DNA of 64,000 nucleotides, from positions 62,001-126,000 of IMG/VR virus record IMGVR_UViG_3300014839_000005. The stretch is one strand, 5' to 3'. Position numbers and translations under genes: made by a program. Source of the stretch: a virus. Shown piece by piece: positions 97 to 61,566 of the stretch; the first letter of the stretch is position 1; every line of letters begins with the position of its first letter. The notes beneath the pieces are model-generated. The model searched no databases and was not told the origin of the DNA. It worked only from the letters and a program-made list of their open reading frames with translations.

Positions 97-543
97 ATGA
101 TTGATTTACAAAAAATTGCTGAAAGTGCATTTGTGAATGAACTTGAAAAAATATCAAAACTTTCACACACACTTGAACCTGACGCTTATACACCTACTAT
201 TAAACATTATGTTAAAAATATCCAAAATATTGAAAAGAAAGAAAAATCTGAATGGAATAAATTAAAAAACAAATATAAACCAGAAATAAGATCTAATAGA
301 TTGGCTGCATTAGGTGGAGCCCTTGGAGGTGGTGGAGCTGGTTTTGCTATAGGAAAATTATTTGGTCTTCCCGTTTCAGGAACCATTGGTGGTAGTTTAC
401 TTGGCGCTGGTGGGGCTGGTGGTATTATGAGTTATATTAACGAATTAAAAAGACCATCTTTTGGAAAAGAAATGTCTTCACATACAGAACGATATGGAGA
501 AGGCGCTCCTAATATCAAAGATTTGCTAATAAATAGAGAATAA
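97..543 (+). CDS. small virion-type protein with N-terminal targeting-like motif
   Basis: 148 aa, started by ATG after an AAGGAAGG Shine-Dalgarno. Residues 1-20 form an amphipathic segment (LQKIAESAFVNELEKIS) that recurs at or near the start of many proteins in this window. Residues 70-110 are Gly/Ala-rich and hydrophobic, resembling a glycine-zipper membrane segment. No family was recognised. I infer an internal capsid or ejected protein whose N-terminus acts as an assembly signal, by analogy with T4 capsid-targeting sequences. It is the first of five similar tandem genes. Confidence 0.75.
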   Translation: MIDLQKIAESAFVNELEKISKLSHTLEPDAYTPTIKHYVKNIQNIEKKEKSEWNKLKNKYKPEIRSNRLAALGGALGGGGAGFAIGKLFGLPVSGTIGGSLLGAGGAGGIMSYINELKRPSFGKEMSSHTERYGEGAPNIKDLLINRE

Positions 544-544
544 G

Positions 545-745
545 ATGAATTGGCTTCAAAAAATAGCTGAAACTGCTTTTGATGATGAAATGCAAAAAAT
601 TCTTCAAGCTGAAGGTATTGATAAAATAATGGATCATAGAGCTTTAACTAGAGTAACGAATATGAATCGCTCTGGTACTAATGTTGGAATTAATGATGAA
701 TACAACCCGACAGAATCAGAAAGTACATATGGACAATCGTTTTGA
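545..745 (+). CDS. small motif-bearing protein
   Basis: 66 aa. The ATG lies one base after the previous stop, so translation is probably coupled. Residues 1-19 carry the recurring motif (LQKIAETAFDDEMQKIL); the rest is polar without a recognisable domain. Its 3' end overlaps the start of the next gene by 17 bases in another frame. Probably a minor internal virion protein, judged only by the motif and its neighbours. Confidence 0.6.
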   Translation: MNWLQKIAETAFDDEMQKILQAEGIDKIMDHRALTRVTNMNRSGTNVGINDEYNPTESESTYGQSF

Positions 746-1145
746 AGAAATAACGAAATACGCTTTTGATGAAGAGTTAAAAAAAATAGCAGACTTTTAT
801 ACTGATATGTTAGCTACTTATCCTGATGAAGAAGAGGAACCTGAATACGAGGAAGAATATCCAGAACAAGCCGCTTCTTATGACTCCCAACGACCTAATC
901 CAATTCCTAGTCTATTTGCTGGTGCAGGAACTGGAACTGCTTTAGCATCTGGTCTTGGAATGTTGAGTAATAATATATTGGGCAATCCTATTTCTCAAAA
1001 TTTTGCCAGAAATGCTATTATTGGCGGTTTAATGGGTGGATTAGGTGCTGGTATTCCAATTTTGATAAATCATTTTTCGTCATCAAATAATAATGAGGAA
1101 AATGATGTTGCCGCTCAACCCATCAATTCAATAATGGAAAATTAA
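729..1145 (+). CDS. small virion-type protein with motif, acidic linker and Gly-rich segment
   Basis: 138 aa from the ATG at 729. The frame is open from 681, but starting at 729 puts the recurring motif (EITKYAFDEELKKIAD) at the N-terminus, as in its neighbours. An acidic Glu/Tyr/Pro stretch follows, then a Gly/Ala-rich hydrophobic region (about residues 60-115) able to span a membrane. No family recognised. Likely an internal or ejected virion protein. Confidence 0.65.
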   Translation: MDNRFEEITKYAFDEELKKIADFYTDMLATYPDEEEEPEYEEEYPEQAASYDSQRPNPIPSLFAGAGTGTALASGLGMLSNNILGNPISQNFARNAIIGGLMGGLGAGIPILINHFSSSNNNEENDVAAQPINSIMEN

Positions 1146-1571
1146 ATGCATTCTATTACACATAAAGCTTTTATTAATGAGTTGGAAAAAATATCTGCAG
1201 CCGGTATAGTGGGAGATATATTAGCAGCTTCGTTGTTAGGTCAATTAGCTATGACTGGTGCTCAACATACTAAAGGAATAAAAGAAGCACTTAAAGCGGG
1301 TGCTACACTAAAACATGCTTTTAGTGCTCCTCCTTTGCCTATTGGAAAAGAATGGAAATTTGTACCATTAAATAGAGTAAATAATCAATTAAAATTACAA
1401 GAAAATCAATTAGCATCTATGACTAAAGAGAAATCTTCTTATGAACATTTTTTAGATGAACAAAGAAAACGAATGCAGACAATTGCTATGCCTACTGGTG
1501 CCGTTGTTTCTATAGCAGCAGAACGAAAACATGATCGTGAACATATACATAAAACACCAATGAAAGGATAA
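1146..1571 (+). CDS. small motif-bearing protein
   Basis: 141 aa, ATG directly after the previous stop codon. Residues 1-18 carry the motif (HKAFINELEKISAAG), followed by a short hydrophobic stretch and a basic, helix-prone C-terminus. No recognised domain. It belongs to the tandem set of putative internal virion proteins at 97-2018. Confidence 0.65.
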   Translation: MHSITHKAFINELEKISAAGIVGDILAASLLGQLAMTGAQHTKGIKEALKAGATLKHAFSAPPLPIGKEWKFVPLNRVNNQLKLQENQLASMTKEKSSYEHFLDEQRKRMQTIAMPTGAVVSIAAERKHDREHIHKTPMKG

Positions 1572-1574
1572 ACA

Positions 1575-2018
1575 ATGAATAAAGATACTATGCAAAAAAT
1601 TGCAGAAGAAGCATTTATTGATGAGCTGGAAAAAATTTCTGGTAAGAAAAGCGAAGTTGCTGGAACAGCAATTGGTGTAGGTGGATCCATTGGAGGGTAT
1701 GCGCTGACTAAAGGTGCAATTAAACGAGGAATGACACCAGAATATGCTAAGGCAATTAATGAATCTCTTATAAAAAATAAAACTATTGGAAAAGTTATGG
1801 GATCTTTAGCGCATTCACAAATGAAACATCCAGGTAAATGGTTAGCCGGTGGATTAGCTCTCAGTGCTATTCCTATCGCAGGTGGGTTAATGCAGAAAGC
1901 TAAATCAAAAGAAGAAATGGATAAACAAAACAAACAAACAATATCTAATTTAGCGCTTGGTCCCTACAATCTTGGTAAACGTATTAAAGCCTCTCTTGCT
2001 AATAAAAAGAAAAACTAA
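1575..2018 (+). CDS. small virion-type protein with motif and two Gly-rich segments
   Basis: 147 aa. N-terminal motif MQKIAEEAFIDELEKISG, then a Gly-rich segment near residues 28-45 and a hydrophobic one near 88-105, with a Lys-rich C-terminus. It is the last of the five tandem genes and is followed by a bidirectional terminator. No family recognised. Confidence 0.7.
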   Translation: MNKDTMQKIAEEAFIDELEKISGKKSEVAGTAIGVGGSIGGYALTKGAIKRGMTPEYAKAINESLIKNKTIGKVMGSLAHSQMKHPGKWLAGGLALSAIPIAGGLMQKAKSKEEMDKQNKQTISNLALGPYNLGKRIKASLANKKKN

Positions 2019-2035: not shown

Positions 2036-2074
2036 AAAAAAAAGACCCCTGTATGTGATCGAGACATACAGGGG
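2036..2074 (-). terminator. strong terminator between convergent units (probably bidirectional)
   Basis: Perfect 11-bp stem (2046-2056 with 2064-2074) and 7-nt loop. On the minus strand it is followed by U8 (2043-2036) and then AGC. On the + strand a looser T-rich tract follows. It closes the retron-like minus-strand operon and probably the + strand gene set ending at 2018. Confidence 0.85.
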
Positions 2075-2084
2075 TTTATTATTT

Positions 2085-2245
2085 GATATGGAACGTAGAC
2101 CGTCTGAGGTCGGGGGCGAAGGCGGGCTCACCTGCTCCAAGATTGAAATAATTGAAAGTCGTCCACTTTCAATTATTCCAATTCTTTCTACTGGCATCAA
2201 GATGTTACATCTCGAACTAAAGGGAAACCCCTTTACTTCCATATC
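2085..2245 (-). ncRNA. candidate retron msr-msd RNA
   Basis: A 161-nt region closed by the perfect inverted repeat GATATGGAA (2085-2093) and TTCCATATC (2237-2245), extendable by 3 bp across a bulge, like retron a1/a2 repeats. Read on the minus strand it holds, in order, a 7-bp stem with 4-nt loop (2235-2218), a 5-bp stem with 3-nt loop (2212-2200), then a long hairpin of about 18 bp (2183-2141). This matches the order of short msr hairpins then a long msd hairpin. One mismatch in the long stem becomes a G-U pair only on the minus strand, which supports that strand. It starts 9 nt after the stop of the 84-aa gene and ends just before the terminator. A TATAAT at 2252-2247 could be its own promoter. 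Its place downstream of the RT is unusual; msDNA production is inferred. Confidence 0.7.
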
Positions 2246-2254
2246 CATTATATA

Positions 2255-2509
2255 TTAGCTCTTTAATATCTTTAAATCTGGTTTTTGAGATTGCGCTGGT
2301 TGAACTTGTTCTCTTGGTTTTACTGATTGATCTAATATTTTCTGGTTTAACTGGTTTGCCTCGGTTCCTACTTTTGTCATTTCTTCATCAAATTGTTTTA
2401 ATCTGGGAAGCATATCCTGAATTAAATTCAGGATAGCTTTCCCAGTGTGTTTGATGTAATATAACACCGCTTCGGAAGTTGGTTTTTGTGGTTCACTGAT
2501 TTTTTCCAT
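2255..2509 (-). CDS. 84-aa helical protein of the retron-like operon
   Basis: 84 aa behind a strong AGGAGG site. Predicted to be mostly helical (residues 10-65), polar, with a Gln/Pro/Lys-rich tail and no recognised family. It lies between RNase H and the structured RNA in the same minus-strand operon. Small accessory proteins occur in some retrons, but any role here is speculative. Confidence 0.65.
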   Translation of the reverse strand: MEKISEPQKPTSEAVLYYIKHTGKAILNLIQDMLPRLKQFDEEMTKVGTEANQLNQKILDQSVKPREQVQPAQSQKPDLKILKS

Positions 2510-2536
2510 ATTAACCTCCTCGATAAAAATGGAAGA

Positions 2537-3025
2537 TTACTTTGAACCATTCCTTATCAGTTCTATATGGTTTTGGGCGATAATATCAGCCCGATTGTTG
2601 AACCGATTGCTTGAGTGGCCCTTGACCCATTGAAATATAACAGACTTGAACTCGGAGGTTTCTTTGTCTATTCTTTTCCATAAGTCAATATTTGCGACCT
2701 GTCCTCCACTGGACTTTCGCCATCCATTGGATTTCCAAGTTTCAAAGTAATCATTCCAATTATCACAGACATATTTTGAATCGGTTAGTATGGTACAACT
2801 GGTTTCACTGGTTAACTGGTTCTTTTTGGTTAGGTACTGATTCAACTTGTTCAATCCCGCTGCTACAGCGGTAAGTTCCATGCAGTTGTTTGTTGTCCCT
2901 CGTAAATGTCCCCCGCCCTCAATAGTATCTTGTTCTGGCGTTACAATAACATAACCGTAACCGCCAGGACAATTTTTTGAAGCATCATTACCGGAACAGC
3001 CACCGTCAGTATATATCAGATACAT
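2537..3025 (-). CDS. rnhA: ribonuclease HI
   Basis: 162 aa, the usual length for RNase HI, which cuts the RNA strand of RNA-DNA hybrids. The DEDD metal site looks complete: Asp in YTDGGCSGN, Glu in NNCMELTAV, Asp in LTDSKYV and Asp in NNRADIIAQ; the WVKGHSSN segment is also typical. It lies 40 bases after the reverse transcriptase in the same operon. In known retrons RNase H activity comes from the host and trims the msr template, so a dedicated copy beside a retron-type RT suggests the phage supplies this step. It could alternatively remove replication primers. Confidence 0.93.
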   Translation of the reverse strand: MYLIYTDGGCSGNDASKNCPGGYGYVIVTPEQDTIEGGGHLRGTTNNCMELTAVAAGLNKLNQYLTKKNQLTSETSCTILTDSKYVCDNWNDYFETWKSNGWRKSSGGQVANIDLWKRIDKETSEFKSVIFQWVKGHSSNRFNNRADIIAQNHIELIRNGSK

Positions 3026-3065
3026 GGTTTATCCCTTACTTAACAAAGATCAGGTAGGATTATTG

Positions 3066-4175
3066 TCAAGCAGCTGCTCTCCCGAACTTTCTTTCTTCGA
3101 ATTCTTTGAGCATCATCATATACTTTTCGCCCTTTTTCCTGTCTACGCTCATAAGATAGGAAGCGAATCCTTTCAGTTTTCTTATCTCTCCCTTTGTGGT
3201 CTTGGCTGCATTTTTGAATTTTGATGTCGCATTAAAAACTGCAGCCCTGAAATTATTTACTACTTTTTTCGGTAGAGATGTTTTTTCATTGACAACAATC
3301 CCGCATACTTTAAGTCTGCCGGCATGTGATTTCCAATTTGTTTTATCCTTATTAGGAATAAAACCATAAGCCCACAATAACCTATATACTTTTGTCTGTA
3401 TTAATTTCCTCAATTGCCACTTATCATGGGTTTTTGAAGAAAAACACAAATCATCAGCATATCGAGTATAAATGATGTCATTGGCTTGACAATATTCTAC
3501 CATTGACTCATCAAATCCTCTAAGAACTATGTTCGCTATAATGGGAGATGTTGGAAATCCCTGAGCGGTAAATCCATTATAAATACAGAGTTTGATCACT
3601 CTTGTAAGCAGAGATTGATATCCAGTTTTTTCGCAATAATCAGGAATGTGAACAGCTTTGATCTCTTCACATTTATGAGGAAAGTTCTTGTTCTTATTAT
3701 GATATAAAGACGGATGGCATTTTCCTTCCAGCATATATTCATAATACCTGCAATAACGGCAGATATTTTTATTGCCAAATAGGCAATTCTTTAAATGTTT
3801 TTCGGAAATACTGTCAAAAAAACTCTTTATATCAATTTTTCCAAGACTTTTTGCGCCTACATGTTTTTTAGCATTGGTTACAATGCCACGTTTGATGATA
3901 AAACCGTGAACAGCTTCGTTAGGTTTGTACCTTCTGAATATTCTCCAATACACAGCCTTCTGAAGATATTTAAGAGTACCGTCGGGAGCCAGTACCTTTC
4001 TCACGGAACCATCTTTTTTAGGTATTTCAATCTTCCTTACATGCATTGGCAGATCATTAATAATCGTATCAACTTTTTCAAGTGGTTGACCAAAAATATC
4101 TGACAATTTAAAGTTACTGTAAGGAGTTGGTGGTTTAACAGCTTTTTCAGCTGTGGCTTGGTTCTGCTGGTCCAC
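3066..4175 (-). CDS. retron-type reverse transcriptase
   Basis: 369 aa. Retron hallmarks in order: HGFIIKRGIVTNAKKHVG with the retron NAxxH motif (101-105), catalytic Asp115 in KIDIKSFF, QGFPTSP (205-211), the YADD box (239-242) in YTRYADDLCFSS, and a VCGIVVN segment where retrons often have VTG. Between the first catalytic Asp and QGFPTSP is an unusual Cys-rich insertion (Cys131, 139, 142, 153, 169, 181) that may bind zinc. The QGFPTSP form argues against a diversity-generating RT. The start overlaps the end of the DHH gene by 29 bases; RNase H, a small protein and a structured RNA follow on the same strand. Confidence 0.93.
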   Translation of the reverse strand: MDQQNQATAEKAVKPPTPYSNFKLSDIFGQPLEKVDTIINDLPMHVRKIEIPKKDGSVRKVLAPDGTLKYLQKAVYWRIFRRYKPNEAVHGFIIKRGIVTNAKKHVGAKSLGKIDIKSFFDSISEKHLKNCLFGNKNICRYCRYYEYMLEGKCHPSLYHNKNKNFPHKCEEIKAVHIPDYCEKTGYQSLLTRVIKLCIYNGFTAQGFPTSPIIANIVLRGFDESMVEYCQANDIIYTRYADDLCFSSKTHDKWQLRKLIQTKVYRLLWAYGFIPNKDKTNWKSHAGRLKVCGIVVNEKTSLPKKVVNNFRAAVFNATSKFKNAAKTTKGEIRKLKGFASYLMSVDRKKGEKYMMMLKEFEERKFGRAAA

Positions 4176-5253
4176 TGGTTTCCTCCTGTGTTTTTACTTT
4201 CTCCCTGGCTTCATCGATATTTTGAGCCGCACCTGTTTTTATAAGATCTTCGGCTTTTTTCTCAAATTTGTCATCTGCCTTATCAACACCGTATTTTTCC
4301 ATACCCTCCTCTTTATAGTTATTTGTGATTTTGGAAAAATCATCAATGAAGGATTCGATGCTATCTTCTTTAATAAATCCTCCACCGACATTATAATGGC
4401 CACCACCTTTAACATAATCAAGGTTGGCCAGGAACCTTCCAATATGGAGATCATTCTTTTCAGAATGCCAACGATTGAAGGCGACCTGCAGATGCCATCT
4501 TTTATTCCATACTGAAGATATTCTGATGTTATACTTAACATCAGGCCTTATGAAAGCTTCGGAATATCTGGGAAACTGACCTGTCCTTCTTTGACGAATA
4601 ACGGAAATCTTATTATAGACTTCCATATTCTGCTTTGCTTTCATAACATCGCCACGAAGATCATCAATGACGGATGCGTCGAGATTTAATATGGCGATTG
4701 TTTCATCAAGATCAAATTCTGTATTTACCAGGACTTCGACAATTCTGTTAAAAATCATGTCGTTGGGCTGTATTCTTTCAAGATACGCCCTTATAATCAT
4801 GATAGGACTTGCATTGGTAAAAACAAAATTAACATCCTGATAAAGTGCCGCATCAATCATATTGATGCTTTTAACCAATTCAGGAAGAAGGATGTTTGTA
4901 TTGCATTCTGCCCTATTTTTCTTTAAATAGTTAAAAAGAAGTTGGAATGCTGAATATGCCGCTGGATCATAAATAGTTTCATCATTGATTACCGGCTTAT
5001 GCCCAAGATCTTTATTGGGATGATGGTCTACCCAAAATGTGGATTGTCTGTGATCTTCAAAGTCGAAAATTGATAATGTATCATTCTCCCCAAGATTGAG
5101 TTTTGTGACAAGTTCGTTAAATTTTTCTCCTCTGGAATAAGACATCACAGGATAAAGGCGATAATTGATTTTGTTATTGATTATGTACTTTAAATACAAG
5201 GCGGCACAACAAATCCCGTCTACATCAGCGTGATACACGACATGATGGCTCAT
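4147..5253 (-). CDS. DHH/DHHA1 family phosphoesterase
   Basis: 368 aa. Motif I HADVDG (8-13), Asp64 in SIFDFED, the DHH triad VDHHP (75-79) and GGGH (283-286) in the DHHA1 part are all present, so a metal-dependent phosphodiesterase or exonuclease like RecJ/NrnA is likely. The last ~45 residues form a charged tail. It is the first gene of the retron-like operon, downstream of two promoter boxes, and its end overlaps the RT start by 29 bases, implying coupled translation. Possible roles are trimming msDNA or RNA, degrading nucleic acid as an effector, or recycling oligonucleotides; the sequence cannot decide. Confidence 0.88.
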   Translation of the reverse strand: MSHHVVYHADVDGICCAALYLKYIINNKINYRLYPVMSYSRGEKFNELVTKLNLGENDTLSIFDFEDHRQSTFWVDHHPNKDLGHKPVINDETIYDPAAYSAFQLLFNYLKKNRAECNTNILLPELVKSINMIDAALYQDVNFVFTNASPIMIIRAYLERIQPNDMIFNRIVEVLVNTEFDLDETIAILNLDASVIDDLRGDVMKAKQNMEVYNKISVIRQRRTGQFPRYSEAFIRPDVKYNIRISSVWNKRWHLQVAFNRWHSEKNDLHIGRFLANLDYVKGGGHYNVGGGFIKEDSIESFIDDFSKITNNYKEEGMEKYGVDKADDKFEKKAEDLIKTGAAQNIDEAREKVKTQEETSGPAEPSHS

Positions 5254-5320
5254 GGTTCCTCCGGTTTGTTTTAAGTAAAAAAAGGCAGGTAGGGGTAGGT
5301 AAAAAGATAATTAAATCTTT

Positions 5321-5355
5321 CAATATTGTTATTACAGGAATGATATTAAAATAAC
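5321..5355 (-). promoter_or_regulatory. 35-bp GTTATT/ATAAC box, proximal copy of a tandem pair
   Basis: On the minus strand: GTTATT, 17 nt, then ATAACAATATTG, matching the box found ten times in the window with the same 35-bp length. It lies 68 bp upstream of the DHH gene start and is the weaker copy in its -10-like part. Confidence 0.6.
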
Positions 5356-5378
5356 AATATCGAAATAACAAATAACTA

Positions 5379-5413
5379 CATTATAGTTATGTCATATAAT
5401 CATTAAAAATAAC
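5379..5413 (-). promoter_or_regulatory. 35-bp GTTATT/ATAAC box, distal copy of a tandem pair
   Basis: On the minus strand: GTTATT, 17 nt, ATAACTATAATG, an exact match to the consensus with a perfect TATAAT. Directed at the DHH-RT-RNase H operon. It begins a few bases after the helicase stop codon, so it probably also separates the retron-like operon from the helicase unit. Confidence 0.7.
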
Positions 5414-5419
5414 AGAGGA

Positions 5420-6814
5420 TTATTTAGATCCGACTTCTTGAAGAGCTTTAAGAAATTGATTATTTAAAGCAGATTTTTGATTGGATAACATCTGAAGATA
5501 TTCATCAGTACCTTTATCTCGATGTTTGAAGATAAAACCATGTTTTCGTGGTTGAGCGACAAAGTTCTGTACCTCAACCTTTCTCTCTTCTTCTGGCAAA
5601 TCAGTATGTGATTTATATCGAACAACCCTACCCTTTACCTGTTCAAGCTGAGGATTGTTCCAATGAGGTTCCATAACTTGCATTAATTTAGTGCCTCTTA
5701 AATCTAGCCCTTCTCCACCAGCTCCAGATATCAACAGTTGTTTTATTTTACCCGTATTATAATTTTTGATAATTTGATGTCTTTGTCCTATAGGAGTTTT
5801 TCCAGTAAATTCAGCATAAGGAACTTTATTTTTTTCTAATAATGATCCAAGAGGCTTAATACCATGCCCGAGATAATTAGAATATGTAACCCCTTTATAA
5901 TTTTTATCTGATTTAAGTTTATTTGCTATTTCACTATATGCCCTCGTGATCTTTGGAGCATCTTTTATATCAGCAGAAAGATTGTATTCTCCAGGATAGT
6001 TTGAAATTTGTCTTGTAGCAGTTAAAAAAGCATTCATTTCTTTTGATTCAGATTTTGATGGCGCAATACCATGTCCTATTTTATATGCAAAAGAAGGATG
6101 TCCCTTTAAGGCCATCTTATAAGCGGCTTCTTGTTTAGGAGACATCTCAACATCAATTTCTTTTTCTTCTACTTTTGGATAATCTTTTGTTGGAGGTTTA
6201 TAATAATCAACTTTTCCTTTAAAACCTTCTTTAATTTCGTTAATATTTTTTGCTACTTGAACTTCACCAGGTTTGATTCCTCTAAATACTCTTGCAAAAA
6301 TATTAGGATTAATTTTTTTAGTTGTTATATATCTTTGATTAAATAGTTTTTCATCTCTTGGAGCTTTCATATTTAAACCCCTCATAATTGGAATTAATTC
6401 ACTTGGCCTATTTCGAAGAGGGGTTCCAGTAAGAAATAATGTTTTATCACCTTTAAGTTGATCTGGAAGATGTGACCTTTGACTATCCATCCTGCCCATT
6501 CTATGAGCTTCATCAAATACCAACATTCTTCCTTTTGCGGATTCAGGGGGTTTATTGTATGAATATGCAGTGACTGGTTCATTAATTTTATGTTTAGCTT
6601 TTTCTTTTGCAAAATTAAATTTTAACGATGCGGGACCGACGACTGTAAGGGGTTTATTAAATGCTTTGCCGGCAGCTAATGCTGTAAGAGTTTTACCAGA
6701 ACCTAATCCGTGATAAACCAAAAGAGCATCTTGATTTTGTAATTTTTCACTTACTCTTTTTTGATGTTCTTGCAATTCGTAAGCAAATTTTATAAGAACA
6801 TTATGATTTATCAT
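5420..6814 (-). CDS. SF2/SNF2-like DNA helicase
   Basis: 464 aa. Q-motif-like ELQEHQ (13-18), Walker A GLGSGKT (36-42), DEAH (101-104), LTGTPLRN (128-135), a motif V segment GAGGEGLDLRG and motif VI GRVVRYKS give a full two-lobe ATPase. The N-terminus (LIKFAYELQEHQ) loosely resembles the recurring virion motif, but that overlaps the Q motif and may be chance. The ATG is three bases after the stop of the upstream motif-bearing gene, so they share an operon. Phage enzymes of this type act in replication or transcription; being carried in the virion is possible but unproven. Confidence 0.88.
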   Translation of the reverse strand: MINHNVLIKFAYELQEHQKRVSEKLQNQDALLVYHGLGSGKTLTALAAGKAFNKPLTVVGPASLKFNFAKEKAKHKINEPVTAYSYNKPPESAKGRMLVFDEAHRMGRMDSQRSHLPDQLKGDKTLFLTGTPLRNRPSELIPIMRGLNMKAPRDEKLFNQRYITTKKINPNIFARVFRGIKPGEVQVAKNINEIKEGFKGKVDYYKPPTKDYPKVEEKEIDVEMSPKQEAAYKMALKGHPSFAYKIGHGIAPSKSESKEMNAFLTATRQISNYPGEYNLSADIKDAPKITRAYSEIANKLKSDKNYKGVTYSNYLGHGIKPLGSLLEKNKVPYAEFTGKTPIGQRHQIIKNYNTGKIKQLLISGAGGEGLDLRGTKLMQVMEPHWNNPQLEQVKGRVVRYKSHTDLPEEERKVEVQNFVAQPRKHGFIFKHRDKGTDEYLQMLSNQKSALNNQFLKALQEVGSK

Positions 6815-6817
6815 AAT

Positions 6818-7576
6818 TTAATAAGAGTAATAAGGGCGTGAAGTATCTTTTTTCTTTGTTGATATCATTTTTTTTGCAAGAGAAAGTCCCACAGCTGTAG
6901 TACCTAATGCCATTTTTGATTTACTAAGATTTTCTCCAAAACTGCTTATTTCACGGTCTATAGACATATTGGGGGATTGTTTTTTAACATAAGCTGTTTT
7001 TAAATCTGACAAAGCGTTTCCAAGGTTTTTATAAGATCCAGCAATATAAGAAGGAGATAATTTTTCTTTAGCTTTATTAATGGCGGCCAATGATAAATCC
7101 CCACCAACTCTTAACCCAGCAACAATTTTTGTGCTGAGTGGTACTGTTGCTATTTTTGCAAGTTCATCTCGAAAGGCATATTCAGAAATTTTCATCATTC
7201 TATCTTGAGGTTGTGGAGTATTTCTTAATAAATTCATTATATACATTGAATCTGGGTCTTGATACGATGCCTCATGTAATTTTTTTAAAATTCCAAGTTG
7301 CCCTCTCTGATGTCCTGCTTTATATCCTAAATATCCTGACCCTCCACTAAGCCCAGCCAATCCTAAGCCAATAGCTAATCGTTTTAAAGTTTGAGCCTTG
7401 GGAAGTTTGAAATCTGAAATTTTTTCAAGATTTTCACTAATACCACCTATTAACTTTGTCTTACCTTTTTTCTGTCCTGCCTTATATCCTAAATGAGCTG
7501 AACCAGCAGCAATACCGGCAGCGCCAAGGCCCATAGCTGTTCTTTTAAGAAATGTTTTATTAATATCTACCTTCAT
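6818..7576 (-). CDS. motif-bearing protein with duplicated Gly-rich segment
   Basis: 252 aa after a GGAGG site. Two copies of a Gly/Ala hydrophobic unit of the form LKRxAxGLGxAGxxxGS, each followed by LGYKAG (near residues 10-35 and 64-90), suggest internal duplication of a membrane-active segment. The recurring motif appears internally near 127-142 (MKISEYAFRDELAKIA). No family recognised. Likely an internal or ejected virion protein although it is on the minus strand with the helicase. Confidence 0.65.
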   Translation of the reverse strand: MKVDINKTFLKRTAMGLGAAGIAAGSAHLGYKAGQKKGKTKLIGGISENLEKISDFKLPKAQTLKRLAIGLGLAGLSGGSGYLGYKAGHQRGQLGILKKLHEASYQDPDSMYIMNLLRNTPQPQDRMMKISEYAFRDELAKIATVPLSTKIVAGLRVGGDLSLAAINKAKEKLSPSYIAGSYKNLGNALSDLKTAYVKKQSPNMSIDREISSFGENLSKSKMALGTTAVGLSLAKKMISTKKKDTSRPYYSY

Positions 7577-10482: not shown

Positions 10483-10647
10483 TTAGGCCCCTTTGTGCTC
10501 TTCCGCAGCGGGTTCCTGTTTCGCCTGGGCCGGTCTGGCCTGGGCGGTTTTGGGCATGTTTTTCTCGATGGCAATGCCAACGCCAACACCGGCACTGAAG
10601 CATATCGTGCAAAGCACGACGGTTGTAATAACGGGATGTCCGAACAT
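10483..10647 (-). CDS. small membrane protein (54 aa)
   Basis: 54 aa behind AAGGAG. Residues 5-27 are hydrophobic (VITTVVLCTICFSAGVGVGI), a likely single membrane segment. The C-terminal half is Ala/Pro/Gln-rich and charged. It has its own promoter box upstream and terminator downstream, so it is a real monocistronic gene despite its size. The region is GC-richer than its surroundings. Function unknown; a lysis or superinfection role is possible. Confidence 0.7.
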   Translation of the reverse strand: MFGHPVITTVVLCTICFSAGVGVGIAIEKNMPKTAQARPAQAKQEPAAEEHKGA

Positions 10648-10736: not shown

Positions 10737-10771
10737 CATTATAGTTATACCACATAATGGGTAAAAATAAC
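10737..10771 (-). promoter_or_regulatory. 35-bp GTTATT/ATAAC box
   Basis: Minus strand: GTTATT, 17 nt, ATAACTATAATG, a perfect consensus copy. It lies 90 bp upstream of the 54-aa membrane protein gene. Confidence 0.7.
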
Positions 10772-12145: not shown

Positions 12146-12835
12146 ATGCATATTAAAATAGCTTCATTACAATCATTCAATACTGAGATGATTAAAATAG
12201 CGCTTCCAGTCCCCGCTCCTGCAGAACATGCAGTAGCTTCAATGATATCTCCTATAGCACATACCCTTGCTGGAAAAAGTAGTTATATGGGAGCACCATC
12301 AATTCAGGGTGGAGTGATGAGGGGGCTTTCAAAATTTCAAAAAGGCGCTGAAAATGTATTTTTTGGCAAAAATCCAGTAATGAGGCCTGGAACGCAAAAA
12401 CCCCTTATGAATCTTAAAACAGGACAACCACTTTTAGAACCAACTATTGAAAGAAAATCTATCGGGAAAACAGGTTGGGCTGCCGACTCTCAAAAAGTAC
12501 TTAATGCTGAGAAAGATACTCCACTAAAACCAGGAGTTAAAAGAATTGAGGCATCAAAACGTGCTGCTACTCCAATTACAGATCCAAATACTGGTCATCC
12601 TATAGCGACCCCACAAAAAGGACAAGTAGTGATGAGTCCCAATTCTGGAAAGCCACAATATCGTCAAGGATGGCGCACTGCCGGTAATGTAGCTAAAGGC
12701 GCGGCAGGTGGAGTGGCGTTAGGCGCAGGAATTCTTGGAGCTGGAACTGTTTGGGGAGGACTCACAATGGATCCTGCGATGAATGCATCATTTTCTGGAG
12801 AGGGCCCCTCTTCTCAAGGGCCTATGTTTGGATAA
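12146..12835 (+). CDS. motif-bearing virion-type protein with C-terminal Gly-rich segment
   Basis: 229 aa after AAAAGGAAA. Motif near residues 10-20 (SFNTEMIKIALP), a Pro/Lys-rich middle with repeated short phrases of the type PNTGHP and PNSGKP, and a Gly/Ala hydrophobic segment around 180-205. No family recognised; probably an internal virion protein. Confidence 0.65.
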   Translation: MHIKIASLQSFNTEMIKIALPVPAPAEHAVASMISPIAHTLAGKSSYMGAPSIQGGVMRGLSKFQKGAENVFFGKNPVMRPGTQKPLMNLKTGQPLLEPTIERKSIGKTGWAADSQKVLNAEKDTPLKPGVKRIEASKRAATPITDPNTGHPIATPQKGQVVMSPNSGKPQYRQGWRTAGNVAKGAAGGVALGAGILGAGTVWGGLTMDPAMNASFSGEGPSSQGPMFG

Positions 12836-12838
12836 TAA

Positions 12839-13828
12839 ATGTCTGATTTAGCAGATAAAATTAAAGAAGCTGCACATTTGGTATCCGAAGATTACCTGCT
12901 TAATCATATTAGTATGAATGATTCTATTTTTTTAAGATCAAGTAATGAAGGTTTTAATTCTGAAATAGTAAAAAGAATATGTGAATTAGCAAATCAAAAT
13001 GTTTATCTTTCATTGTTTAATGATCCTTCTATCAATAAAGCTAACATTCAATTTGAATTAGCAGATTATAGTCAAATATCAGATAAACTTCAAAAAAGTG
13101 AGAATGACATGAAAGAATATAAGCTTGTTCCGAAAGGATTCAAAACGCAGTTAGCTTTTGATAGAGCTAAAAAAGAAGCGCTGAGTCAAGTTGACTTTCA
13201 GCAAAAGAAATTAGCATCACTAGATGAGTTGCAATATGGAAAACATAAATTTGAGGCTTTATTAAATAGTCTTGAAACTATCAAAGTCGCCTCTGAAGAT
13301 GATGCTAAAGAGGCCTTTGGAAGATTATTTAATGATTCTAAACTTCTTGTTGCTCAAGGTGACTCAATTGCTGATATGGCTAAGATAGCTATGCGGCATG
13401 TAAAAGATTCTGGTTTTGAAATGATTAAAATCGCAAGAGCTTATGATCTTATTTCAACTGAATTAAAAAATAATGGATATACTGTAAATGAAGAATTAAC
13501 TAAAATGTCATCTCTTGCAATTAATAAAGAGTCTAAACTTTTAGAACCATCAATGGATTATATAGTTGGTATTGAAAAAGTTGCTGCATTACACGAGATG
13601 TGTAAAAATGTTAAAGCAACAATTGACATGTTTGATCAAGCAATTGAAAAAACTGCAGCAATTCCTAAAGTTGTTACAAAATTGCCTCAGCAAATTAAAG
13701 ATTATGGTAAATATATTGTAACTCATAAAAAAGATATTCTTACTAATCAGGGAATTGGACTTGGGCTTGATGTAGCAGCTGGTGGCCTTGCTGGTCATGC
13801 AGCCGCTCAGCATCACAATAAGAAATAG
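12839..13828 (+). CDS. helix-rich virion-type protein
   Basis: 329 aa, ATG three bases after the previous stop. Mostly helical and charged, with hints of the motif (FNSEIVKRICEL near 39; FEMIKIARAYDL near 195) and a Gly/Ala C-terminal segment (LGLDVAAGGLAGHAAA). No family recognised. Context suggests an internal head protein. Confidence 0.7.
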   Translation: MSDLADKIKEAAHLVSEDYLLNHISMNDSIFLRSSNEGFNSEIVKRICELANQNVYLSLFNDPSINKANIQFELADYSQISDKLQKSENDMKEYKLVPKGFKTQLAFDRAKKEALSQVDFQQKKLASLDELQYGKHKFEALLNSLETIKVASEDDAKEAFGRLFNDSKLLVAQGDSIADMAKIAMRHVKDSGFEMIKIARAYDLISTELKNNGYTVNEELTKMSSLAINKESKLLEPSMDYIVGIEKVAALHEMCKNVKATIDMFDQAIEKTAAIPKVVTKLPQQIKDYGKYIVTHKKDILTNQGIGLGLDVAAGGLAGHAAAQHHNKK

Positions 13829-13836
13829 CAATTCTA

Positions 13837-14532
13837 ATGAATATCGCTCATATATTAACAAAACCATTATTAGCAATTACTCCTGATAAAGAAATAGGAT
13901 ATGGTCCATGGCATCAATTAGGTCTTGGAGCGTTTTTGGGAGGTGCTCCTGTTGGAGCTGCTGCATTAATGAAAAGGCCTTTAAAATCAGCTATCCCTAC
14001 ATCTATAGCTGGGTTAGCACTTGGGATTAGTGCATTGCCACTGCACAATGCTCTTGTAAAATATAAACAGGAACAAAAATTAAAAGAATTTGAAAATGAA
14101 TTAACGCAGCATTTCTTCCCAGAATCAGATCCTGGAATTCATGTAAAAAATATTTTTCATACAATGTCTAATATTAAAGCTTCTATACCAAAAGGTTTTT
14201 CAAAAGAAGCAAAGTTAATAAATAAAGTTTTAGACAAAGCTACTGAATTTGCTGGAAAAAGTACTTGGAGCGGCGCTAAAGCAATAACAAGATCACTTTT
14301 TCCTTTAGAAAAAAACGCTCCTCTTGGAGAAAAGATATTAGGTGGAGCAGTAAAGGGAACAGCAATTGGTGCGGCAGGATATGGAACATATAAAGGTATA
14401 GATTATCTTAAGAAAAAACAACCATATAATTATACTACCATGTTAAGAAATAATATTTTACATGGAAAAATTCAACCATCTGAATTAAATAGCAATGAAT
14501 TACAAGAAGTAAAAAGATTAGGTATGAAATGA
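13837..14532 (+). CDS. virion-type protein with several Gly-rich membrane-like segments
   Basis: 231 aa. Hydrophobic Gly/Ala segments near residues 28-70 and 165-185 alternate with charged helices. The stop overlaps the ATG of the next gene (ATGA). No family recognised. The profile would fit a protein entering a membrane during DNA ejection, which is inference. Confidence 0.65.
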   Translation: MNIAHILTKPLLAITPDKEIGYGPWHQLGLGAFLGGAPVGAAALMKRPLKSAIPTSIAGLALGISALPLHNALVKYKQEQKLKEFENELTQHFFPESDPGIHVKNIFHTMSNIKASIPKGFSKEAKLINKVLDKATEFAGKSTWSGAKAITRSLFPLEKNAPLGEKILGGAVKGTAIGAAGYGTYKGIDYLKKKQPYNYTTMLRNNILHGKIQPSELNSNELQEVKRLGMK

Positions 14533-14783
14533 ATATTCAAGATATTAAATCATTTTCAAATGAATTAAGAAAAATAGCTGGTATTGGTAAAATTATTGGA
14601 GGAGTAATAGGAGGGGGTTTTGCCGGCTTATCTGTATTAGGCGCTCATAATGCCGGTAAACAAAGTGCTATGAAATTGGGAAGAGGAAATGCCCCATTAC
14701 CAATTCAACCTTCTCAAAATATTTTACGAAAAAATCCTTTAGATAAAGGTATAGGAACAAGTGAAAATATTGGCAGTTTTTAG
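14529..14783 (+). CDS. motif-bearing Gly-rich small protein
   Basis: 84 aa, start overlapping the previous stop. Motif IQDIKSFSNELRKIAG at residues 3-18, followed directly by a Gly-zipper-like segment (about 19-45). No family recognised. Confidence 0.65.
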   Translation: MNIQDIKSFSNELRKIAGIGKIIGGVIGGGFAGLSVLGAHNAGKQSAMKLGRGNAPLPIQPSQNILRKNPLDKGIGTSENIGSF

Positions 14784-14803
14784 ATATATTAAAAGGAGTA
14801 TTT

Positions 14804-15412
14804 ATGTTAATTAAAGAAGCTGTACAAAGTTTATATGATAAGAAACAAATTACAGAGCAGGAGTATAAACTTTTAAATGACAATCTTCCAGAATTAGAAA
14901 AAACAGCCGGTGTGACAATTCATATTCCTGATGCCGAAGCACTACTAGGTGGACTAATAGATGCGGATGGTAGTGCCCCACATCTTATGAAAAGTATTTG
15001 GGAAATTGCTAAACAAATTGCCGCTGGTGGCGCTGTAGCTACTGGTGGAGTTCTTGCTGGAGTAGAATTAGATAAGTATCTTAAATCAAAGCGTGATATT
15101 GAGAATTCTTATAATACTATGAATGAAAAAGTTCCAGCTCTTACTGAATATCCTCAGGATAAAATTAAAGATTATTTTGAAGTTATTAAAACATTTTCTC
15201 CACGATCAGCTTCTAATCCTTTAGTTGCCGGTGCTCTTGTTCACAAAATGCTGGAATTTGGTGGAGTAGATCATAAACTTGTTCAAGATCTTGCCAGGAT
15301 GGAAATGCCACAACAAAGTCTTGTATATGAATATGCAAAATCTGGTCTTGGCGGATTAGCACAACCTCCAAAGTTTGATAAATATGAACATGACCAGTCC
15401 TGGAATGATTAA
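14804..15412 (+). CDS. virion-type protein with Gly-rich segment
   Basis: 202 aa behind AAAAGGAG. A motif-like region LNDNLPELEKTAGV sits near 26-39, and a Gly/Ala hydrophobic stretch near 72-90. The remainder is helical. No family recognised; same inferred class as its neighbours. Confidence 0.65.
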   Translation: MLIKEAVQSLYDKKQITEQEYKLLNDNLPELEKTAGVTIHIPDAEALLGGLIDADGSAPHLMKSIWEIAKQIAAGGAVATGGVLAGVELDKYLKSKRDIENSYNTMNEKVPALTEYPQDKIKDYFEVIKTFSPRSASNPLVAGALVHKMLEFGGVDHKLVQDLARMEMPQQSLVYEYAKSGLGGLAQPPKFDKYEHDQSWND

Positions 15413-15743
15413 AACAACTTATAAAGCATTTAAAGAAGAACTTTTCCTTGAGAAAAATGCTGATGCATTTAATCTTATTGGGAAACTAGTGTCAAAGGGA
15501 GCAAAGGCTGCATGGGAACACCCTAAAACAACGCTAGGTATTATTGGTGGAACTGTTGCGGCTGATATGATTGGAAGATCTTTATTTCCAGCTTTAGTTG
15601 TCGCCAATCAAGCCGATCAAACAGTACATCTTGATAGCCAAAATTCTTTATTGAATGATATACTTATGCAGGAACGAATAAGAAATATAAAACCTAGACC
15701 TGTTACTCCAATGTACAGGCCAATACAACGTCCTTTAGTTTAA
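15405..15743 (+). CDS. motif-bearing small protein
   Basis: 112 aa from the ATG at 15405, which overlaps the previous gene and puts the motif (YKAFKEELFLEKNA) at residues 6-19; upstream in-frame ATGs lie within the preceding gene. A hydrophobic Gly/Ala segment spans about 43-62 and the C-terminus is Arg/Pro-rich. Confidence 0.6.
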   Translation: MIKTTYKAFKEELFLEKNADAFNLIGKLVSKGAKAAWEHPKTTLGIIGGTVAADMIGRSLFPALVVANQADQTVHLDSQNSLLNDILMQERIRNIKPRPVTPMYRPIQRPLV

Positions 15744-15760
15744 TTAATTAAGGAGCAAAT

Positions 15761-16255
15761 ATGCCATTACCATTATCTCAAATCGGCGGAGCTGTTAAAA
15801 GTTTTGTAAAACCAATTGGTCAAGCTTTTCAGGGATTGGGTGGAGGACAGAAAGCAGCTATTGGTTTAACTGGCGGACTTCTTGCTGGAAAAGCTTTAAG
15901 CGGGGGGCAAAGAAATACTACTATTAACAAATTATCATTTGATGAAATTTCTGAGAATGCATTTAAAGATGAACTTCAGAAAATAGCTAAGAAAACTCAT
16001 CCAGTTTCTAAGAGCCAAGAACGTTGGGCTTTTGCCGCTGAAGAACGCGGGGAACTTCCTAAAGGGAAAGCAGAAAAATGGGCAAAGAGAGCAAAGGGTA
16101 AACATCTGCCCGAAAAAACCGCGTCTGATGAAATTACTGATAAAGCTTTCATTGAAGAGTTAAATAAATTGGCATCTGAAAAAGGGTTGAAAAAGCTTAT
16201 TAAAAAAATTCATAAAACACATCCAGAAGCTTTTGCAGGAATTGGTGCAAAATGA
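15761..16255 (+). CDS. protein with two internal copies of the virion motif
   Basis: 164 aa after TAAGGAG. A Gly-rich N-terminal half is followed by the motif twice: FDEISENAFKDELQKIAKK near 61-80 and DEITDKAFIEELNKLASE near 126-143. Between them a basic SKSQERWAFAAEERG region resembles short conserved phage proteins. Two copies in one chain suggest fusion or that the motif can work internally. Confidence 0.65.
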   Translation: MPLPLSQIGGAVKSFVKPIGQAFQGLGGGQKAAIGLTGGLLAGKALSGGQRNTTINKLSFDEISENAFKDELQKIAKKTHPVSKSQERWAFAAEERGELPKGKAEKWAKRAKGKHLPEKTASDEITDKAFIEELNKLASEKGLKKLIKKIHKTHPEAFAGIGAK

Positions 16256-16524
16256 TTAACCTTGAAAAAATAGTTCAAGATGCTTTTATAGATGAACTTC
16301 AAAAACTTTCTAATGAAGAATCTCAACTTGAGCGAGGCATTGAGGTTGAAAAAGAACATTTGCCTACAGTGAAAAAAATACAGGCTAGTATTAAAGATGG
16401 TAAAATTACAATGCCTCATAAAAAGATATATGAATCTATTGCTGAAGATCATTTAAATGAGGAAGATAACCCAAAACGAAAACAGTATTATACATTACTT
16501 AAAAAATTTGTAGATCCAAGTTAA
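16252..16524 (+). CDS. motif-bearing small helical protein
   Basis: 90 aa, start overlapping the previous stop (ATGA). Motif INLEKIVQDAFIDELQKLSN at residues 2-21, then a charged helical body without a Gly-rich segment. No family recognised. Confidence 0.65.
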   Translation: MINLEKIVQDAFIDELQKLSNEESQLERGIEVEKEHLPTVKKIQASIKDGKITMPHKKIYESIAEDHLNEEDNPKRKQYYTLLKKFVDPS

Positions 16525-16545
16525 TAAATATTTTAGAAAATTAAA

Positions 16546-18417
16546 ATGATTAAATATTTTGAATTTGATTCTATTGATGAGTATGGTCAACATATCATAC
16601 CCATTAATCCCGAATCACCACTTACTAAATTAGCTTCTCCTGGCTATTCTCCAGAGCTTATGAAAGTAATCATAGCTATGAAGAGGGTTCCAGAATATTA
16701 TTATGTTGTAATCAATGCTCTTGGTTCATATGAGGTTTGGGGAAGCAACCGTAATGGAGATGCCTTTCCTGAAAAAGGATTAAGGCATCTTTCGTTACGG
16801 AGTGATATGGGAACGGATCAGGATTATGGATATAAAACTTTTGAATATTATGCAAAATTATTTAAGCATCATGTTAATAAAGATCCTAAAAATTCTTTTG
16901 GCGATATCATTTTTTCCCATTGGAATGATAAGCTTAAAAGAGTTGAACTTATAGTTGGTATTGATAGAGTTAAAGGCGGTGATATTATAGCGGCTCTTGA
17001 AAATGGTGATAATGTCAGTGTATCAATGGGAGCAAAAGTAAAATTTGATAGATGTAATATTTGTGACAATAAATCCTCTACAAGAGAAGCGTATTGTAAA
17101 CATTTAAAGAATTATTTAAGAGCCCTTGTCACTGACGATCTTGCGAGACAATGGTCAAGAGAGACTGGAAAACTCATTCTCCCTGGTACAGTTGTTTTTG
17201 CTATTAATGATTTTCCAAGATTTTTTGATATTAGCAAGGTATGGATTGGGGCGGATAGAACGTCTTATATATTAGGAAAAGCAGCTTCCAGATGTGCAGT
17301 AATATCAGGTATAGATATGGCAGATTCCTTTGGAATTACAGATATAATGATTGATAAATTATCAGCTTTTGGAAAGAAAAGTGAAATAGATAAAGAACTT
17401 GGTGGAGATGCTTTAAGTAATGATAAGTCCAAGGACGGTGAAATTGTCGCTATTCCCAAATCTGATGCATTAAAAAAAGCTATTGACGCTACAATGCAAA
17501 GAACTATAGCTGAAGAACCAAGAATACCAAATTCTATTCTTGATCCCATTGCTTCCACTTTTCCGCTAAACAATATATTCTCTACTTTATTCGGCCTTGG
17601 TATTCATCCTAAGCCAGTAGAAACTCAAAGAATTATTATTATAGCAATTAAACGCCCTGATATAGCAAATTATTTAGATCAAAATAATATGTGTTTTGAT
17701 AGTCAGGAGCCTGTAGAACAATCCGCAGATATTGATATTAATGATAAATTATTTAATGATGTTATTGCAAGAGCATTAATGCCGTATATTGAAAAAAGAA
17801 GTGCCTTTCCTACTTTCTTAGATGCAAGGATGCAAAAAACTCTTGAAAAATATGCTGAGTCAAATGGAATTGAAAGTGTTATTAATAATAATGATTATTG
17901 GTTGCAACAAGGTCCTGGAACTGGGTCTCTTATACAAACATCAAAATTACCTGTTGAATTAGCAGCTCTTGGTGGATTAGCGGCTATTTATGCTGGGTTA
18001 AAATTAAAAGCTGCCGGATATAGCCCTAAAAGAGTTGCAGAAATTTTCATTAATAAACCATGGCTTCGAAATATAATTGGAGGAGGAGTAATGGTTGAAT
18101 TAATGAATCGAATGATTGGTAATGCAGCAAGATTAGATCCATATATTACAAGACCAGCCAATGAATATGAAGATATTTTACAAGATACAAATTTTTCTGG
18201 TCATATACAAAAATACGCTTCAATGGCTAATGCTTTAGGGCTTGGCATTGGTGCTGGTGCAGTAATACTTCCAAGTGCCTATATGATAAATTCGTATAGT
18301 CAAAAATCACTTGTTCCTCCTAAAAGAACTGCCGCTGTTGGGGGAACACTTACTGCATTAGGAACATTAGGATATGATGAAATAAATAAAGCTATTACAA
18401 AAGCTAAAAGATATTAA
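16546..18417 (+). CDS. probable head-maturation protease with C-terminal extension
   Basis: 623 aa. Residues 55-160 resemble phage prohead serine proteases: a GSNRNGDAFPE region, His125 in FSHWND, then GGDIIAALENGDNVSVSMG with Ser158/Ser160 as candidate nucleophiles. A Cys4/His-like site follows (Cys170, Cys173, Cys184, His186). The long C-terminal half (about 440-623) has Gly/Ala hydrophobic segments and a KYASMANALGLGIG stretch like the small virion proteins, so it may be a fusion whose tail is packaged. It lies directly upstream of the scaffold-like and capsid genes, as expected. Confidence 0.65.
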   Translation: MIKYFEFDSIDEYGQHIIPINPESPLTKLASPGYSPELMKVIIAMKRVPEYYYVVINALGSYEVWGSNRNGDAFPEKGLRHLSLRSDMGTDQDYGYKTFEYYAKLFKHHVNKDPKNSFGDIIFSHWNDKLKRVELIVGIDRVKGGDIIAALENGDNVSVSMGAKVKFDRCNICDNKSSTREAYCKHLKNYLRALVTDDLARQWSRETGKLILPGTVVFAINDFPRFFDISKVWIGADRTSYILGKAASRCAVISGIDMADSFGITDIMIDKLSAFGKKSEIDKELGGDALSNDKSKDGEIVAIPKSDALKKAIDATMQRTIAEEPRIPNSILDPIASTFPLNNIFSTLFGLGIHPKPVETQRIIIIAIKRPDIANYLDQNNMCFDSQEPVEQSADIDINDKLFNDVIARALMPYIEKRSAFPTFLDARMQKTLEKYAESNGIESVINNNDYWLQQGPGTGSLIQTSKLPVELAALGGLAAIYAGLKLKAAGYSPKRVAEIFINKPWLRNIIGGGVMVELMNRMIGNAARLDPYITRPANEYEDILQDTNFSGHIQKYASMANALGLGIGAGAVILPSAYMINSYSQKSLVPPKRTAAVGGTLTALGTLGYDEINKAITKAKRY

Positions 18418-18583
18418 ATAATTTATTTTATTCTGTACAAATTATGAGATTAATGATAAAATTTAATAGTAAAAGAAGATAATTTGCTTTTTTTATCTTA
18501 TAGATATTATATTAATTATGTATATATTTGACAGATAGAACGTTAACCAGTCTGTTTCGTTTCACAATATATGGAGGTTTCAA
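18418..18583 (+). promoter_or_regulatory. intergenic region upstream of the scaffold and capsid genes
   Basis: A 166-bp gap holding a 7-bp AT-rich hairpin (AAGATAA with TTATCTT, about 18476-18502) and a TTGACA at about 18529 that could be a -35 element, although no good -10 follows at 17 bp. A strong GGAGG precedes the next gene. Probably promoter-bearing, but no element is certain. Confidence 0.3.
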
Positions 18584-19480
18584 ATGCCTAAGTCATCTTT
18601 TGAAGATCACATGAGGATTGTAGAAGGTTCGCACACCAAAACGGCGAGTGCAAAAACAGTTACGCCAAGTCTTCTGGACAAACTTGCAGCTGAGATGGCT
18701 GGTGGTGCGGTTGATTCCACCGCAAAAGCTGCAGTTCCAGATCAGTCAACAGTTGCCGAAGCTGCTCCAGCCGTTGTGGCAGCGACAGAAGCTATTGCTG
18801 TTCCGCAGACAACTATTGCGGGTGGAAATGAAGCTGAGAAGGAAAAAGGGATGATGCCGGCTCCTTCTAAACCTGCTGTTTTTGTTATCGGTGATGGTGA
18901 TAAGAAAGTTACTGATGCTCAGAATTTCAGCAAAGAACCAGCTGCCGTTGCTGAGGCGGCAAAAAATACTGGTGGGTCAGAAAAAACATCTTCTGACAAA
19001 GAGGCTGAAGAGATTGGCCGTACAATGGCTCATTCTTATGTTACTGAAATGCGCAAAATTGCTGTTGATGAACAGTATGATACGGCTGTTGGAATTCTTA
19101 AAGAGGCTGGACTTCTTGATAATTATAAAGTCGATGAATCGCTTGAAAAGAAAGCCTCCGATGAGCCATCCGCCCTTGATAAGATTGCAAACAAGCAGCC
19201 TTTGACAAGGGAAGATATGGTAAAAGCAGCTAATGAATATGTTGAATTATCAAAACAGGCTGAAGAGGCGGATGCTTTTGGCCGTCAGAAAGCCCATGAG
19301 TATTTTGATTCTCTTGTAAAACAAGCTGCTGAGGAAATGGAATCTGAAGAGGAAAAAGACGAGGAAGAGAAAAAGGGAAAGAAAAAAGCTGAAAAAGAAG
19401 AGGGTGAAAAAACAGCCTCTGACGAATCTATTGAAAAAGCAGTTGCAGTTCTTGTAAAAGCTGGAATCGTTCAGGCCTAA
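18584..19480 (+). CDS. acidic, Ala/Lys/Glu-rich scaffold-like head protein
   Basis: 298 aa. The composition (Ala, Glu, Lys, few aromatics), predicted coiled coil and position between protease and capsid genes suggest an assembly core or scaffold. It contains motif-like segments (AHSYVTEMRKIAVDE near 150; QKAHEYFDSLVKQAAEE near 234) and repeated Lys-x-[AS]-Ser-Asp phrases (KTSSD, KKASD, KTASD) that could be linkers or processing sites. Its bases are GC-richer than nearby genes, as in the capsid gene, consistent with high expression. Confidence 0.6.
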   Translation: MPKSSFEDHMRIVEGSHTKTASAKTVTPSLLDKLAAEMAGGAVDSTAKAAVPDQSTVAEAAPAVVAATEAIAVPQTTIAGGNEAEKEKGMMPAPSKPAVFVIGDGDKKVTDAQNFSKEPAAVAEAAKNTGGSEKTSSDKEAEEIGRTMAHSYVTEMRKIAVDEQYDTAVGILKEAGLLDNYKVDESLEKKASDEPSALDKIANKQPLTREDMVKAANEYVELSKQAEEADAFGRQKAHEYFDSLVKQAAEEMESEEEKDEEEKKGKKKAEKEEGEKTASDESIEKAVAVLVKAGIVQA

Positions 19481-45577: not shown

Positions 45578-45612
45578 CATTATAGTTATTCCAAAAAACG
45601 ACTTAAAATAAC
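45578..45612 (-). promoter_or_regulatory. 35-bp GTTATT/ATAAC box
   Basis: Minus strand: GTTATT, 17 nt, ATAACTATAATG, a perfect copy. Upstream of it a TCGATCT-AGTTTAA stretch is shared with the box at 47755. It faces the structured region at 45374-45577. Confidence 0.7.
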
Positions 45613-61226: not shown

Positions 61227-61261
61227 CATTATAGTTATTCCTAATTATTCAAACAAATAAC
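61227..61261 (-). promoter_or_regulatory. 35-bp GTTATT/ATAAC box
   Basis: Minus strand GTTATT, 17 nt, ATAACTATAATG, a perfect copy. Its GTTATT overlaps the stop region of the gene ending at 61263 and it faces the candidate small RNA. Confidence 0.7.
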
Positions 61262-61531: not shown

Positions 61532-61566
61532 TATTATTGTTATTCCCAATTATCGAATCAAATAAC
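61532..61566 (-). promoter_or_regulatory. 35-bp GTTATT/ATAAC box
   Basis: Minus strand GTTATT, 17 nt, ATAACAATAATA. The -10-like end is about 12 bp from the TTG start of the gene at 61520, so the leader would be only a few bases long. Confidence 0.6.

Follow-up and report, generated by a model that had tools for sequence, protein, structure and literature searches.

A stretch of 64,000 nucleotides (nt), hereafter the window, which corresponds to bases 62001-126000 of the 128.5-kb virus record IMGVR_UViG_3300014839_000005, carries on its minus strand at 2085-5413 a compact unit of a DHH phosphodiesterase, a retron-clade reverse transcriptase (RT), an RNase HI, a small protein, a structured RNA and a terminator, in that order. 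All of these parts, their order, their coordinates to the base and the overlap of the first two genes had been proposed in a sequence-only reading of the window, and were confirmed by analysis of the open reading frames (ORFs), domain searches, fold prediction and shuffling of the RNA. The features of the unit are given below in the direction of transcription (aa, amino acids; ncRNA, non-coding RNA; msr and msd, the two parts of a retron ncRNA; a1 and a2, the arms of its long-range stem).

5382..5413, minus strand: promoter copy 1, GTTATTT-N16-ATAACTATA
5324..5355, minus strand: promoter copy 2, the same phage-type motif
4147..5253, minus strand: DHH-DHHA1 phosphodiesterase, 368 aa, from Pfam and fold
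4147..4302, minus strand: probable internal in-frame gene inside the DHH gene, 51 aa (MEKYGVD...), start behind AGGAGGG
3066..4175, minus strand: retron-clade RT, 369 aa, YADD intact, from profiles, fold and tree
3627..3776, minus strand: four-cysteine insert of the RT (C139, C142, C153, C169), about 45 aa between motifs A and B, from alignment
2537..3025, minus strand: RNase HI, 162 aa (Pfam RNase_H 5.6e-29; NCBIfam ribonuclease HI 6.6e-34)
2255..2509, minus strand: small protein, 84 aa, conserved in position, about 48-84 aa in relatives
2085..2247, minus strand: retron-like ncRNA (msr-msd), 163 nt, from folding, with the same plan in relatives
2237..2246, minus strand: a1 arm of the long-range stem, pairing with a2
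2236, minus strand: candidate priming G directly after a1, from its position in the fold
2197..2215, minus strand: msr hairpin of 8 bp with a 3-nt loop, UCGAGAUG UAA CAUCUUGA, from covariation
2139..2186, minus strand: long hairpin in the presumed msd, from the fold, variable in sequence and size among relatives
2108..2116, minus strand: CCCCCGACC, the most conserved stretch of the ncRNA, in the presumed msd beside a2, from invariant alignment columns
2085..2093, minus strand: a2 arm, pairing with a1
2045..2075, minus strand: intrinsic terminator hairpin followed by a T tract

The RT begins at a GTG codon behind AGGAGG, and its start overlaps the end of the DHH gene by 29 nt. By every test used the RT is, at the level of sequence and predicted fold, of the retron clade, as had been supposed from the sequence alone, yet it forms a clade of its own. 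Pfam RVT_1 matched it at 5.7e-18, the top PADLOC profiles were all retron profiles, led by RT_XIII (5.8e-60) and RT_III-A (3.3e-59), and the NCBIfam model for retron St85 gave 3.4e-55. Because the St85 score lies under that model's own cut-off, the protein is a relative of St85 rather than a member, and assignment to the RT_XIII or RT_III-A types is likewise unsupported because the unit holds no PADLOC retron-type partner gene. Among solved structures, phmmer ranked Ec86 first (1.3e-22); an AlphaFold model (predicted local distance difference test, pLDDT, 85) had retron RTs as all of its top 18 Foldseek matches; and in a 90-row tree the phage RT family was recovered as one group within the retron RTs (support 100/99) and was separate from all other lines sampled, Ec86 included. 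Three other origins were rejected. The NCBIfam scores for group II (6.7e-15) and for Drt2 (4.3e-11), a defense-associated RT (DRT), fall far behind that for St85, which argues against a group II intron or DRT origin, and for a diversity-generating retroelement (DGR) the RT of BPP-1 formed a very long, distant branch and retron structures outranked those of DGRs in Foldseek. What sets the family apart is the four-cysteine insert, which was absent from the other retron RTs sampled: the gap between motifs A and B spans 90 aa here versus mostly 42-56, and at most 79, in sampled retron RTs with readable motifs, and the four cysteines are, like YADD, invariant in 18 RT sequences; the insert may bind zinc.

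The structured RNA, at whose retron-like nature the sequence-only reading had only hinted, proved to have the architecture of a retron ncRNA. Its minimum free energy is -62.8 versus -39.5 for shuffled sequence (z -6.3), and none of 200 shuffles was as good. The RNAs downstream of the operon in relatives fold alike, with an outer a1/a2 stem, a first hairpin, a hairpin of 8 bp and a 3-nt loop, and variable long hairpins, and a CCCCCGACCCC stretch near a2 is conserved across them; even the locus L030, whose RT is 46% identical, retains this plan within 92 nt. The ncRNA of Ec86/Eco1, a member of the St85 family that also resembles the phage unit in RT fold and motifs, is similarly composed of a1/a2, a first msr hairpin, an 8-bp hairpin with a UUU loop and then msd. 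The outer stem was assessed by duplex energy, which averaged -18.7 kcal/mol for cognate and -10.3 kcal/mol for non-cognate arms, with the cognate arms ranking first in 11 of 14 cases. In the folded sequences, the base that immediately precedes the first hairpin is a G, which from this position is a likely candidate for the priming base.

Covariation was counted on the msr hairpin alone, which is the counterpart of P3 in Eco1. All eight pairs are formed in 15 of 15 sequences, a percentage biased upwards by the choice of the segments by eye from the folds; L018, L019 and L031, whose hairpins are looser, were excluded from the count. Double changes are unaffected by that choice, and in six of the eight pairs both bases change (33 such cells versus 7.5 expected by shuffling); the covariation score is 0.962 versus 0.303 for shuffled data, and every slid register stays below 0.24. 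The loop reads NUU in 11 of the 15, the exceptions being the window (UAA), L028 (UAA), L021 (UUC) and L023 (AAU), and thus fits the rule measured for Eco1, in which the loop requires U at positions 2 and 3 and tolerates any base at position 1 (PMC11754653). The Ec86 RNA, read from an E. coli genome, contains GGATGTTGTTTCGGCATCC, i.e., GGATGTTG-TTT-CGGCATCC, which is the same 8-bp hairpin, and G-UUU-C hairpins of the same kind were found beside other retron RTs in 13 cases versus about 0.3 expected, nine upstream and four downstream. In the phage family the 8-bp hairpin was found only downstream of the operon. On these grounds of sequence and folding, it is very likely that the RT and the ncRNA form a working retron-type system.

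Scans with the RT or DHH protein singly detected nothing beyond one nearly identical contig from the same phage, and an RT alignment was needed to reach the relatives. With it, a search of IMG/VR yielded 80 loci, of which those down to L034 (38-64% identity) have DHH, RT and RNase H in the same order, with one RNase H exception, and carry the unit 2-3 kb from the TerL pair on the other strand. After removal of near-identical contigs, 18 distinct phages bear the unit, so that the expected conservation of gene order was borne out: the RT is intact in all of them, DHH lies directly 5' of the RT in 18/18 and RNase HI directly 3' of it in 17/18, RNase H being absent from the operon in one phage (L030/L032) and degenerate in another (L028). 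In a TerL-based search, 18 relative contigs, from about 15 distinct phages, extended 7 kb or more upstream, and all 18 carried the unit. Protein distances follow those of TerL (Mantel r 0.78 for RT, 0.88 for DHH and 0.84 for RNase H; p 1e-4), and those of RT and RNase H correlate at 0.92. Among the matches listed, GTDB species genomes gave no RT relative above 33% identity and isolate phages gave only distant retron RTs below 30%. The presence of the unit in all checkable relatives and its congruence with TerL indicate that it is a core unit passed down vertically within these phages rather than a roaming defense island. Separately, the tree contains a second virus-only clade of retron RTs (support 99/87; L035, L037-L042, L044, L045, L048, L052 and L055), on contigs of 26-210 kb; its conserved neighboring genes, as judged by eye, encode an AAA ATPase, a VWA protein and portal-like and polymerase-like proteins, and several members have G-UUU-C hairpins upstream of the RT.

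The first protein of the unit matched Pfam DHH at 1.4e-5 (25.8 bits, just below the curated cut-off of 28.1). Sequence comparison with solved structures gave no clear relative and tblastn against isolate phages gave no match, and it was the fold search that placed the protein: the AlphaFold model (pLDDT 88.6) had the pGpG phosphodiesterase PggH (8e-15) and pAp phosphatase as its top Foldseek matches. By its predicted fold it is thus a two-domain DHH-DHHA1 phosphodiesterase, nearest to pGpG and pAp enzymes, and the nuclease role proposed from the sequence alone becomes one option within this group of single-domain-type DHH-DHHA1 phosphodiesterases. The phage protein shares the two-domain fold and the DHH and GGGH motifs with PggH, NrnA and pAp phosphatase at about 14% identity; unlike them, it is linked to a retron and ends in a mini-protein with its own likely start. 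It is conserved in 17 aligned sequences, with motifs degenerate in L031 alone. The internal Met of the mini-protein is kept in 15 of the 16 sequences listed and lies one codon earlier in L034; most of the 16 have a purine-rich GGAGG-like stretch upstream of it, and in the model the last 51 residues fold into a helical hairpin of their own, set off by a linker of low confidence. These three features make an internal in-frame small gene likely, and its start survives even in L031, despite the degenerate DHH there.

RNase HI has the catalytic residues D7, E50, D82 and D147 and is the only RNase H match in the 128.5-kb record. The 84-aa protein had no family match in profile searches; in most loci of the family, RNase H is followed by a small ORF, and these ORFs show weak similarity in an FxK-I/L-FP helix. 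PADLOC matched neither RNase HI nor the 84-aa protein, its only match to DHH was weak and unrelated (0.018), and no known retron effector domain was found in the unit with Pfam and PADLOC profiles.

The two promoter boxes noted in the sequence-only reading are real, since GTTATTT-N16-ATAACWATA has six matches in the window (5324-5355, 5382-5413, 10740-10771, 45581-45612, 61230-61261 and 61535-61566, all on the minus strand) versus none expected from shuffles of the window. The record holds 10 copies, every one on the minus strand; two precede the DHH-RT unit and two sit upstream of the phage transfer-messenger RNA (tmRNA). Boxes resembling the motif occur upstream of DHH in several relatives, and a stricter upstream-box pattern missed several relatives. 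A scan for sigma-70 promoters performed no better than on shuffled sequence. The unit had been described as lying inside a virion module, which is true of its surroundings, as it adjoins the terminase and is flanked by plus-strand virion-type genes, but not of its expression: because it has its own phage promoter class and lies on the opposite strand, it is not read with the plus-strand virion genes and is next to, not part of, their transcription module.

Several observations concern the neighborhood of these promoters and of the unit. The phage-encoded tmRNA (60525-60929, minus strand) has a predicted tag of 29 residues, which is unusually long and may be misread. A 54-aa ORF with a hydrophobic N-terminus (10483-10647, minus strand) stands behind one phage promoter, just after TerL. 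Directly upstream of the unit is a SNF2-type helicase of 464 aa (5420-6814, minus strand), whose N-terminus resembles a stretch, AFxDELxKIA or close variants, that is shared by ten ORFs (window 97-2018, 6818-7576 and 12146-19480). The motif lies mostly near the N-terminus of small plus-strand proteins, was found in none of the reversed sequences, and resembles a shared targeting or capsid-loading tag.

The explanation that we favor, with moderate confidence as a whole, is a virus-domesticated retron in which RNase H takes part in maturation and which has a housekeeping or counter-defense role. One transcript from the phage-specific promoter would supply DHH, RT, RNase HI, the two small proteins and the 3' retron ncRNA. 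The RT would recognize the 8-bp NUU-type hairpin of the ncRNA, probably with its four-cysteine insert as a further contact, use the 2'-OH of the G that follows a1 as primer, and copy msd from a2 inwards. Retron RTs have no RNase H of their own and need host RNase H1 to clear the template and to terminate correctly (PMC8989520); here, the phage RNase HI would remove the template and set the end of the multicopy single-stranded DNA (msDNA), and we propose that its own enzyme would make msDNA production independent of host rnhA. The DHH enzyme would most likely act on short oligonucleotide products of the reaction or on host signal nucleotides, and the msDNA-protein complex would be required each time the phage infects, most likely for host takeover or counter-defense.

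Several findings weigh against this explanation. The loop of the window's own hairpin is UAA rather than NUU, and the ncRNA is placed at the 3' side of the operon, whereas the published retron layout is msr-msd-RT (PMC8867640) and the ncRNA of Ec86 is 5' of the RT. No Rfam model, msr included, matched the ncRNA at the gathering threshold, and the matches of a lenient search, all below threshold, were to unrelated families and owed their scores to the terminator and the long hairpin. Each of ten relatives' records has exactly one RNase H, and the L030 phage has it outside the operon, so the enzyme may be simply the replication RNase H of the phage; this is our main reason for caution about an RNase H role confined to the retron. 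RNase H is, moreover, degenerate in L028, as DHH is in L031. The self-contained retron with its own RNase H and DHH that the sequence-only reading envisaged is supported as to the retron RT and the conserved gene order, whereas the tie to RNase H is not strict, as L030 and L028 demonstrate.

The same relocation and single copy number of RNase H would suit a reading in which RT and ncRNA make up the real retron, with DHH and RNase HI as ordinary enzymes of replication or nucleotide salvage that have no more than the promoter in common with it. PggH/NrnA-type DHH-DHHA1 enzymes degrade short oligonucleotides, and the fold of the phage DHH matches that type. We nevertheless consider this reading unlikely, given that RNase HI directly follows the RT in all but one of the distinct phages, that DHH directly precedes it in every one, and that RT and RNase H distances are so closely correlated.

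It is rather improbable, too, that the unit is a phage-borne defense or superinfection-exclusion retron, in which a DHH or small-protein effector is held by the msDNA complex and freed by a competing phage. The retrons characterized to date are RT-ncRNA-effector defense systems (PMC12548924, PMC12887533), P2-like prophages carry retrons (L288, L011), and the overlapping DHH and RT genes are coupled, all of which would agree with such a role, and exclusion of rival phages had indeed been suggested from the sequence alone. Exclusion or defense genes in phages are usually patchy, whereas this unit is universal in checkable relatives and tracks TerL, which disfavors exclusion. In addition, no bacterial or prophage relatives were found among the matches listed, the RT is kept where the motifs of DHH (L031) or RNase H (L028) are lost, and the unit has no known retron effector domain. 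A housekeeping or counter-defense role is hence more likely than an accessory exclusion system.

That the RT copies the ncRNA for a non-retron purpose, e.g., to give a regulatory or structural complementary DNA (cDNA) in packaging or virions, is very improbable in spite of the fixed position beside the terminase and the G-rich cDNA that CCCCCGACC would yield, because both a1/a2 and the msr hairpin have been preserved in the form that retrons show, the promoter class is common to minus-strand loci such as the tmRNA region and not to plus-strand virion genes, and the conserved motif has no other exact copy in the record. The idea of a G-rich cDNA mimicking another genome site was rejected in the same way, as the extended 13-mer has no other exact copy in the record; CCCCGACC occurs once in the window.

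A literature search of incomplete coverage gave no earlier description of such a DHH-RT-RNase H-ncRNA unit. Staphylococcal jumbo phages have an RT of unassigned role that, as here, is conserved across a group of large phages, and the DHH-RT-RNase H unit was not reported for them (PMC10638138); the RT of the large Staphylococcus phage OR844994 is only 28.5% identical to that of the window. Ec86/Eco1, for its part, lacks RNase H, DHH and the four-cysteine insert, and is an accessory element that resides in a prophage and has another effector.

The accepted view of retrons is that of bacterial abortive-infection systems dependent on host RNase H1 (PMC8989520, PMC12548924), and a retron as a phage core module is surprising because they are known as bacterial defenses against phages. 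The RT-RNase H pair might make DNA without help from the host, which would be of interest for retron-based DNA production in cells. In the phages described here, the retron appears as a fixed, vertically inherited core module with RNase H, DHH, a four-cysteine insert in the RT and a compact ncRNA, and this raises the question of what msDNA does for a virus. One possible answer, which we offer tentatively, is that the phage lineage depends on its own msDNA in every infection, and this would be the first retron with a viral, not an anti-viral, role.

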